A DNA stretch of 5,275 nucleotides from a bacterium (GTDB taxonomy: Bacteria; Thermosulfidibacterota; Thermosulfidibacteria; Thermosulfidibacterales; Thermosulfidibacteraceae): the NCBI GenBank assembly GCA_027022065.1, contig JALVZS010000176.1, positions 1 through 5,275 of the forward strand, in the 5' to 3' direction. The translations under genes were made by a program, and so were the position numbers. Positions 1,110-5,275 of the stretch are shown piece by piece. Within the stretch, counting starts at the first letter, position 1. Each line of letters opens with the position of its first letter. The notes under the pieces were generated by a model. The model ran no database searches and was not told the origin of the DNA. It saw only the letters and a program-made list of their open reading frames with translations.

Positions 1110-1541
1110 CTAGCCTCCTATTTTTATAATCTCCTTAAGCAGATTGAAGAGCTTTTTGTGCCTTATCTCGTCCTCCAGAATTGTTTCGTAAATGGCCTTG
1201 GTCTTTTCGTCCTTCTCCTCCTCGCAGATCTTTATGTGCTCCTGATACATGGCTATGGCCTCGTCTTCCACTTCTATGTCTGCGTTGAGCATAGACTCAA
1301 AATCCTTCTCCCATCTAACGTTTCCAGAGGTTACGGTTTCCTGCCCGCCCAGCTCCACTATCCTTTTGGCGAACTTTTCAATGTGCTTCATCTCCTCAAC
1401 GGCTATTCTTTCAAGTAGCTCTCTTGCTATGGGGTGAGTGTCCTTGGGGAACCTGTAGTGCTGTCCCATGTACTGGAAAACTGCTCCTATTTCCCTTTCA
1501 ATGGCCTTGTTCAAGATTTCAATGATGCGCTCTTTGTTCAT
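1110..1541 (-). CDS. Bacterioferritin-like diiron protein (ferritin-like four-helix bundle)
   Basis: This 143-residue cytoplasmic protein has the full set of ferroxidase-type diiron ligands: Glu17, Glu50-M-K-His53, Glu92, and Glu125-I-R-His128. They match bacterioferritin Glu18, Glu51/His54, Glu94 and Glu127/His130 in order and spacing. Met51 falls at the position of the haem-ligating Met52 of E. coli bacterioferritin. The likely role is Fe(II) oxidation and storage or peroxide detoxification. It is shorter than typical bacterioferritin (about 158 residues) and ends just after the fourth helix, so the short fifth helix is missing. A Dps-like or generic ferritin-like protein is an alternative. 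I chose the ATG at 1541-1539, not the in-frame ATG at 1562, because GGGAGGT (1553-1547) lies 5 nt before it and it forms an ATGA overlap with the stop of the upstream phosphatase gene. Confidence 0.85.
   Translation of the reverse strand: MNKERIIEILNKAIEREIGAVFQYMGQHYRFPKDTHPIARELLERIAVEEMKHIEKFAKRIVELGGQETVTSGNVRWEKDFESMLNADIEVEDEAIAMYQEHIKICEEEKDEKTKAIYETILEDEIRHKKLFNLLKEIIKIGG
1114..1119 (-). promoter_or_regulatory. Ribosome binding site for the antiporter, inside the ferritin-like gene
   Basis: AGGAGG reads on the minus strand within the last two Gly codons of the upstream ferritin-like gene. It stands 11 nt before the TTG start of the transporter, slightly longer than ideal. Because it lies ahead of the upstream stop codon (1112-1110), terminating ribosomes could feed straight into the transporter start. 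It supports TTG at 1102 as the initiation codon. Confidence 0.6.
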
Positions 1542-1546
1542 CCTAT

Positions 1547-1553
1547 ACCTCCC
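1547..1553 (-). promoter_or_regulatory. Strong ribosome binding site for the ferritin-like gene
   Basis: GGGAGGT on the minus strand lies 5 nt before the ATG at 1541-1539. It sits within the last codons of the inositol-monophosphatase gene. It decides the start of the ferritin-like protein: the alternative ATG at 1562-1560 would come before this site. Confidence 0.75.
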
Positions 1554-2086
1554 TTTAAGCATGGATTTAATATGTCCTTGAGGGTCTCGTGAATAACACC
1601 GTTTGTGGCAAACAGCCAGCCCTCAATGGGCCTTTTTCCCATTACGCCTTCCACCTTTCCTCCCGCTTCTTCCACAAAAAGTATGCCGCTTGCCACATCC
1701 CAGGGGGATAGGTAAAAATATATAATCCCGTCGTATCTTCCGCACGCCACATATGCCAAATCCAATGCAGCAGAACCGGTGTGTCTTGTGGCGCAGCCGT
1801 TTAGGAATAGGGTTTTGTATATGCGGGTCTGCTCCTCTATAAGCTCCTTTCCCCTGTAGGGGAGTCCTATGCCCACTATGCCTTTTGAAAGCTCCCTATT
1901 TTGAGAAACTTTTATTCTCTCTCCGTTGAGAAACGCTCCTTTTCCCTTTTCAGCGAAGAACATCTCCTTTTTCACAGGGTCGTATGTGACACCGCAGAGG
2001 ACCTTTCCTTTTTTGAAGTAGGCGATGTTTATGGCGAAGTGGGGATTTCCTCTCATGAAGTTTCTTGTTCCGTCTATGGGGTCAAC

Positions 2087-2089
2087 TCA
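2087..2089 (-). other. In-frame TGA replacing the conserved Trp codon of the phosphatase
   Basis: On the minus strand the reading is GGC TTC TGA GTT GAC CCC, that is G-F-stop-V-D-P. Both sides stay in one frame, so no insertion or deletion is involved. Trp elsewhere in the same gene (PWD motif) and in merR is TGG, and TGA also ends this gene. TGA is therefore used as a stop here, not as a general Trp codon. Confidence 0.9.
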
Positions 2090-2313
2090 GAAGCCTTGTT
2101 CACGTCGGGAGCCTTTTGCGGTTTCCTCGCCGACAACAGGAATGCGGGCAGGCTCAAGGAGCTCTTTTATGTAGTTTTCAATCTCCACATCCACCTTTGT
2201 AACAAAGTCGCTTTTTGCCTTTTCCCTTATGCCCACATCCTTTCCCTCAAGGAGCTCCAGATACCTTATAAGCAGCCTCTTCCCCGCTTTTCTTACCGTA
2301 TCTTTTATGAAGT

Positions 2314-3816
2314 CTAGCATAGCAGAGCCCTCACCTTAAATTGCTCCTGATGGTAGTTGGGTACCTCCTGCACCCTTATCTTTATGTTCAGCCTTCTTTC
2401 AAGTTCCTCTATGCACTCGTGCTCTTCCTCTATCATGTGCTTTGCCACCTTAGGGTTTACCTCAACAAGGAACAGGTTTTTGGAGGGGTTAAACGCCTTA
2501 ACCTTTCGTATTTCTCTGAATATATCGTAGCAGACTGTTCTGGGAGGCTTGACCAGGCCTCTTCCCTGGCAGTAGGGGCAGGTATCGCATATGGTTTTGA
2601 TGAGGCTTTCTTTTACCCTCTTTCGCGTCATTATCACCAGTCCCAGCTCAGTAAAGCCCTGTATGTTTGATGGAAATCTGTCCTTTTTCAGGGATTCTTT
2701 CAGGACCCTTAGAACCTCCTCTTTGTGCTCTTCGTCCTCCATATCAATGAAGTCTATGATGATTATTCCACCGATGTTTCTCAGCCTTATCTGGTGGGCT
2801 ATTTCCCTTGCGGCTTCTAGATTGGTCTGGAATATGGTTTCCTCAAGGTTGCTCCTTCCCACGAACTTGCCCGTGTTCACATCAATGGCTGTAAGAGCCT
2901 CGGTTTCCTCTATGACAATGTATCCGCCCGATTTGAGCCACACCTTTTTGTCTAGGGCCTTTTTTATCTCCTCCTCCACGTTGAACCTGCTGAATAGAGG
3001 TATGGGATCCTTGTAAAGCTTAAGCCTGTTTAAGGCCTTCGGTACATAGTCTTCGGCAAAGGCCCTGCACCTCTGGTATGCTTCCTCGTCGTCTATTATT
3101 ACCTCTTCGGTGTCCGAGGTGAAGAAGTCCCTGAGGGCCCTTTCCGGAAGCTCAAGGTCTGCGTAGAGCAGCTTAGGTGCAGATGCTTTTTCCGCTTTTT
3201 TCTTTATGCTTTCCCAGAGGTTTATAAGATACTCCATGTCAGAGGCAAGCTCCTCTTCACTTTTTCCCTCGCTCACCGTCCTAACAATGAAGCCAAACTG
3301 CTGTGGCCTAATTTTGTTTACTATCTCCTTTAGCCTCTTTCTCTCATCGGGATCTGTGATCCTGTGGGACACTCCTATGTGAGTCATGGTGGGCATTATG
3401 ATGAGGTATCTTCCGGGAAGCGTTATGTGGGAGGTGAGCCTTGGTCCCTTTGTCCCCAGGGGTTCTTTAGCCACTTGAACGATAATCTCCTGCCCTTCCT
3501 GCAGAAGGTCTCCTATGGGCACGCCTTTGGGCACTTTTCTTGGGATGTTGCCGTTTTCAACTAGATCCGAGAACTCCTCAAACAGCTCCACCGGTGAAAC
3601 CTCGCTCACGTAGAGGAAACCCGCCCTTCCTATGCCTATGTCCACGAAGGCAGCGTTCATGCCCGGCAGGACCTTTACCACACGCCCTTTGTATATATTT
3701 CCCGCAATAGTCTTTTCCGTCTTTCTCTCTATGTATATCTCGGCTAAGCCGTATTCTTCCGTTATGGCCACACGGGTTTCCTTGAGATCTACGTTGATGA
3801 GTATTCTGCTTCCCAT
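2314..3816 (-). CDS. rng: Ribonuclease G (RNase E/G family endoribonuclease)
   Basis: This 500-residue cytoplasmic endonuclease cleaves single-stranded AU-rich RNA; family roles are 16S rRNA 5' maturation and mRNA decay. An S1-type RNA-binding domain occupies about residues 37-128 (NIYKGRVVKVLPGMNAAFVDIG). The catalytic core shows AIDVNTG with Asp312 and IIDFIDM with Asp355. Their 43-residue spacing equals that of the Mg2+ ligands Asp303/Asp346 in E. coli RNase E. The Zn-link CPYC at 413-416 lies 58 residues further, as in RNase E (Cys404/Cys407). The length matches RNase G (about 490 residues), and there is no C-terminal degradosome scaffold. The ATG at 3816 gives the family's usual N-terminus (ILINVDLKETRVA). 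Unlike the other genes here, it has no evident ribosome binding site. It is the first gene of the minus-strand cluster, and its TAG lies inside the next gene's first codons. Confidence 0.95.
   Translation of the reverse strand: MGSRILINVDLKETRVAITEEYGLAEIYIERKTEKTIAGNIYKGRVVKVLPGMNAAFVDIGIGRAGFLYVSEVSPVELFEEFSDLVENGNIPRKVPKGVPIGDLLQEGQEIIVQVAKEPLGTKGPRLTSHITLPGRYLIIMPTMTHIGVSHRITDPDERKRLKEIVNKIRPQQFGFIVRTVSEGKSEEELASDMEYLINLWESIKKKAEKASAPKLLYADLELPERALRDFFTSDTEEVIIDDEEAYQRCRAFAEDYVPKALNRLKLYKDPIPLFSRFNVEEEIKKALDKKVWLKSGGYIVIEETEALTAIDVNTGKFVGRSNLEETIFQTNLEAAREIAHQIRLRNIGGIIIIDFIDMEDEEHKEEVLRVLKESLKKDRFPSNIQGFTELGLVIMTRKRVKESLIKTICDTCPYCQGRGLVKPPRTVCYDIFREIRKVKAFNPSKNLFLVEVNPKVAKHMIEEEHECIEELERRLNIKIRVQEVPNYHQEQFKVRALLC
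2328..2337 (-). promoter_or_regulatory. Ribosome binding site for the phosphatase gene inside rng
   Basis: The minus-strand stretch AAGGTGAGGG lies 7 nt before the ATG at 2320-2318, within the last codons of rng. It supports that start and suggests coupling of the phosphatase's translation to that of RNase G. Confidence 0.6.
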
Positions 3817-3860: not shown

Positions 3861-4158
3861 AGGAGTCTATGGATAAAGACTACATGCGCATAGGGGAGGT
3901 GGCCAAGCTCACGGGTGTTCCCAGAAGGGTGCTGAGGCAGTGGGAGAAGGAGTTTCCCATGTTGAGGCCTATAAAGAGGAAGGGCTACAGGCTCTACTCC
4001 AAAAGGGATGTGGAAATAATACTGAAGATAAAGGAGCTTTTGGAAAAGGGTATGACGCCTGAAGGAGTTAAGCGGAGGTTTGAGGAAGGGCTTTCTGACG
4101 AGGAGAGGGGATTTCTTAAAATACTTAGGGGTATAAAGGGTGAGATAAAGTCCATACT

Positions 4159-4162
4159 GGAG
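4159..4162 (+). promoter_or_regulatory. Ribosome binding site for lolD inside merR
   Basis: GGAG lies 7 nt before the ATG at 4170-4172, within merR coding sequence. The lolD frame has a stop at 4164-4166, so no earlier start is possible. Together these fix the lolD start and confirm the overlap. Confidence 0.6.
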
Positions 4163-4169
4163 ATGATGG

Positions 4170-5275
<1,106 letters not shown>

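Follow-up and report, generated by a model that had tools for sequence, protein, structure and literature searches.

A local frame lesion probably underlies the in-frame TGA of a SuhB/inositol-monophosphatase-family gene in a draft bacterial genome

The SuhB/inositol-monophosphatase-family gene (hereafter suhB) on the minus strand of the window, at positions 1538-2320, comprises 260 codons plus a stop and is interrupted at codon 78 by an in-frame TGA (2087-2089). The window is the whole stretch of DNA analysed (5,275 nt), that is, contig C176 of a draft genome of 1.57 Mb in 251 contigs that is 88.3% complete. The interrupting TGA, described in an earlier sequence-based prediction (the original prediction), is indeed present in the assembly, and no stop other than this one was found in the suhB frame. 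Taken together, the analysis suggests that this is probably an ordinary member of its family, the reading frame of which has been locally damaged in this assembly by a misframed patch lying directly before the stop. The phenomenon is an ordinary one, and the stop matters little outside annotation.

The identity of the gene is supported by both of its parts. When the TGA is read through, suhB matches the PF00459 profile with 176.8-180.9 bits, covering 248 profile positions (11-254 of 271 at 180.9 bits; cut-off 27), which places the interrupted gene above the gathering score over most of the model. The frame was confirmed to match on both sides of the stop, in the order G-F-stop-V-D-P-I-D-G-T, with PF00459 similarity before and after it. 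The metal-binding motifs are in frame (VVGEET, codons 62-67; DPIDGT, codons 80-85), and both the sequence and the alignment place the VDPIDG motif (2069-2086, minus strand) directly after the stop. Overall, suhB is 59% identical to the orthologue in the nearest genome compared (G001). The 5′ part (codons 1-67; 2120-2320, minus strand) is 56% identical and the 3′ part (codons 79-260; 1541-2086, minus strand) 64% identical to this orthologue, and codon usage is normal in both. As for the subfamily, no NCBIfam equivalog cut-off was reached. A profile search of the genome returned suhB as its only PF00459 match, and no second copy or strain variant was found in the assembly when the region and the genome were searched.

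The original prediction had placed the stop exactly at an invariant tryptophan of the family and had derived it from one C-to-T change at position 2087. Neither point was confirmed. The Trp of the DP(I/L)DGT motif is well known and lies three residues before the Asp (D-3), whereas the TGA lies two residues before it (D-2). Trp occupies D-3 in 32 of 36 distinct relatives, where it aligns with the Phe of codon 77 or with a gap; the D-2 column is filled by Ile, Val, Leu, Tyr, Ala or Cys, and by Trp in none of the 36. Moreover, 'invariant' is too strong a word for the Trp column itself, as G001, the closest relative, has Ile there (its orthologue reads YILVDPIDGT). Since the stop is one residue off the family Trp, an account by single substitution that is built on a Trp codon loses support. 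The alignment with relatives' orthologues, which had been proposed as a check, revealed no stop at this site in any orthologue of the order. A wider scan of genome contigs for a close orthologue returned only a distant Nitrospirae MAG.

A second result concerns the ten codons that adjoin the stop. Codons 68-77 (2090-2119, minus strand) read GCA AAA GGC TCC CGA CGT GAA CAA GGC TTC, a series that is unusual for this genome, where CGA and CGT make up about 1% and about 4% of Arg codons, respectively. That is, the patch consists of rare codons in frame 0 but has normal usage when read one base later, and is therefore apparently out of frame. Reading codons 69-76 in frame +1 instead of frame 0 raises the log-likelihood by 9.76, a value reached in none of 25,978 windows drawn from 90 genes with a frame confirmed by alignment to G001, and no window of 8, 10 or 11 codons among about 26,000 showed a gain this large at the one-base-later reading. 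The synonymous-only score of codons 68-77 (-12.36) was matched by one of 25,888 windows from the 90 verified genes, a frequency to be read with the patch having been noticed after looking, so that its probability is not fully a priori. The claim that no other decay is visible in the gene is thus contradicted by this outlier, while the kept ATGA overlap with the ferritin-like gene (1538-1541) was confirmed. The flanks score -0.39 and -0.37, close to the genome mean of -0.35, and this normal codon usage on both sides suggests that the lesion is either recent or artefactual. The accumulated substitutions in the 3′ part that would mark an old pseudogene were not seen, and this candidate was rejected on the normal codon usage of, and identity to G001 on, both flanks. 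At the protein level, the frame +1 reading of the patch gives ..DVN.., near the DLD / EDVP of relatives. Profile scores over the patch were 334.3 for frame 0, 336.8 for frame +1 (one residue longer) and 330.8 when all residues were set to X; the loop is too poorly conserved for protein similarity to tell the frames apart. A search for repeats overlapping the patch, as expected of a template switch or phase variation, found none, and both candidates were rejected. The suggestion of a phase variant is likewise left unsupported, there being neither such a repeat nor another copy in the genome.

We propose that a patch of the variable loop preceding DPIDGT, about 30 nt long (about 2087-2119), has been shifted by one base, after which the frame is restored. 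Two compensating indels would bound the patch, the first one beside a run of four A (2114-2117) that adjoins its start, and the TGA would arise from reading this shifted patch out of frame. The cause may be a consensus/assembly error in the draft genome or a genuine, very recent inactivating change, and we consider an error and a fresh null allele about equally probable. Artefactual stops introduced during assembly are a well-described problem in bacterial genomes (Cooley and Wright 2024, PMC11017572). If the lesion is genuine, ribosomes would stop at codon 78 and no product with the DPIDGT metal site would be made, because the next in-frame ATG (codon 89; 2054-2056) lies beyond the motif; the gene would then presumably be null for the phosphatase. 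As assembled, the TGA and the position of this ATG leave no translatable full-length product. The earlier reading of a base error or fresh lesion therefore still stands as the best one, although as a short misframed patch and not as one substitution at a Trp codon.

The stop appears to be an isolated event. In a sample of about 527 kb, about a third of the draft, 47 stops had coding-like sequence on both sides (19 TAA, 17 TAG and 11 TGA), and nearly all of the others looked by eye like ordinary junctions between genes, a start codon following soon after the stop. A comparison of G001 with the sampled third of the genome (110 gene matches, 31,396 residues) identified a mid-gene stop in an evident true gene for suhB only; on inspection, the remaining rows with a mid-stop looked like antisense frames or frame edges. 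One apparent frameshift was seen, and it lies within a tRNA-Ala/tRNA-Val cluster. As suhB is the sole evident true gene interrupted in the sampled third, the lesion is local; an altered genetic code or an assembly of generally poor quality does not account for the stop. The lack of any other frameshift in the sample indicates an assembly that is not generally error-prone, a point against assembly error. A genetic code with TGA as Trp (table 4 or 25 type) was rejected, given a tRNA-Trp with anticodon CCA, the presence of RF2, and TGA as an ordinary terminator (11 of the 47 stops). The case shows that an isolated in-frame stop in a draft assembly may be mistaken for a clean nonsense or recoding site while codon usage reveals a local frame lesion.

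A frame that is correct throughout, in which one substitution made the TGA (as a fresh nonsense mutation or a base-call error) and the rare codons arose by chance in a variable loop, is an unlikely explanation. Frame 0 is open across the patch with family match on both sides, and the loop differs in length and sequence among relatives, as this account would have it. However, the codon-usage outlier directly adjoins the stop, and the family column does not fit the proposed origin from Trp.

It is highly unlikely that ordinary or programmed read-through, or a double frameshift bypassing the stop, yields small amounts of full-length enzyme. The 3′ part shows no decay, and a ribosome that moved to frame +1 and back would miss the stop, but an intact 3′ part is equally expected from a recent lesion. 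Furthermore, the absence of a stop here from all orthologues of the order, the lack of a stem-loop, and the RF2 and tRNA-Trp (CCA) noted above all argue against read-through, and we know of no precedent for two programmed shifts within 30 nt. The read-through or recoding site envisaged in the original prediction is further disfavoured by the D-2 column devoid of Trp, the ordinary use of TGA as a stop, and the SECIS results below.

The genome encodes selenocysteine machinery, with profile matches to selA (618 bits), selB (405 bits) and selD (352 bits). This makes TGA potentially a sense codon, and recoding of the suhB TGA therefore had to be tested. A complete selA-selB pair lies side by side at G000:C124:15901-19115. 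The selD gene (G000:C27:4114-5034) probably encodes a selenoprotein itself and carries its own in-frame TGA, behind which lies a textbook bSECIS hairpin. No tRNA-Sec was detected in the 88.3%-complete draft. A bSECIS is expected to have a loop of 3-9 nt with G in its first two positions, a stem of 4-16 bp, a spacing of 16-37 nt from the UGA, and a minimum free energy (MFE) of at most -7.5 kcal/mol (PMC13188914). The selD TGA, used as a positive control, passes on every count (loop GGA, 8 bp stem, 20 nt after the UGA), the hairpin reaching -14.8 kcal/mol and a 45-nt stretch -19.9 (-14.8 to -20.2 overall). By contrast, no bSECIS was found after the suhB TGA: the sole hairpin in range has 4 bp, -1.0 kcal/mol and the loop AUGA, with no G in its first two positions, and the MFE of -1.8 to -4.0 kcal/mol is weaker than that of shuffled sequence. 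Nor does a conserved Cys align with the TGA, as relatives of the order carry Ile, Val or Leu in this column, and Cys occurs in one of the 36, a distant relative. In the selenoprotein literature searched for inositol-monophosphatase selenoproteins, no inositol phosphatase is mentioned. Thus, that the TGA is a selenocysteine codon, which would make SuhB a new selenoprotein, is extremely improbable despite the machinery and the selD TGA. There is similarly a very slim chance that the UGA is truly decoded in vivo, whether an unrecognised SECIS directs selenocysteine insertion or the misframed patch is skipped in a programmed way, in which case the level of SuhB enzyme would depend on recoding. In a broader sense, a genome with selenocysteine machinery offers its own positive control (selD) for judging in-frame stops.

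On the minus strand, suhB lies between a ribonuclease G gene (rng; 2314-3816), its upstream neighbour, and a ferritin-like gene (1110-1541) whose start overlaps the suhB stop. In a comparison of six relatives of the order (L043-L048), the rng-suhB adjacency is kept in all six, together with the divergent merR-lolD genes (window 2314-3816 and 3869-4841; about 43-75% identity), whereas the ferritin-like gene was not found beside suhB in any of them. The ferritin-like protein (143-150 aa) scores above the Pfam Ferritin cut-off and below every NCBIfam cut-off. It had been suggested that the stop could reduce translation of this gene. The overlap on which the suggestion relied is real, but the polarity argument is weak, as the gene has its own AAAGGGAGG ribosome site before its ATG (1539-1541) and is not a conserved neighbour; an effect of the suhB stop on it is possible but doubtful. 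Two of eight other genomes of the order (G002 and G008) gave no PF00459 match, and suhB may have been lost, or not assembled, in the lineage.

Compared with the SuhB/inositol-1-monophosphatase family (PF00459), suhB matches over its full length, has the EE, DPIDGT and WDVA(S/A)G motifs, and adjoins rng as in the six relatives; it differs in the in-frame TGA at codon 78 with its atypical ten-codon loop, and in having Phe or a gap in the family Trp column (Ile in G001). Like bacterial selenoprotein genes such as selD of the same genome, it carries an in-frame TGA where selA, selB and selD are also encoded, but it has neither a bSECIS nor a Cys/Sec column. As with the pseudogenes with internal stops that are made by assembly (PMC11017572), one gene of a draft is interrupted while its flanks are otherwise intact, although for suhB an error is one of the two proposed causes and not a proven one.
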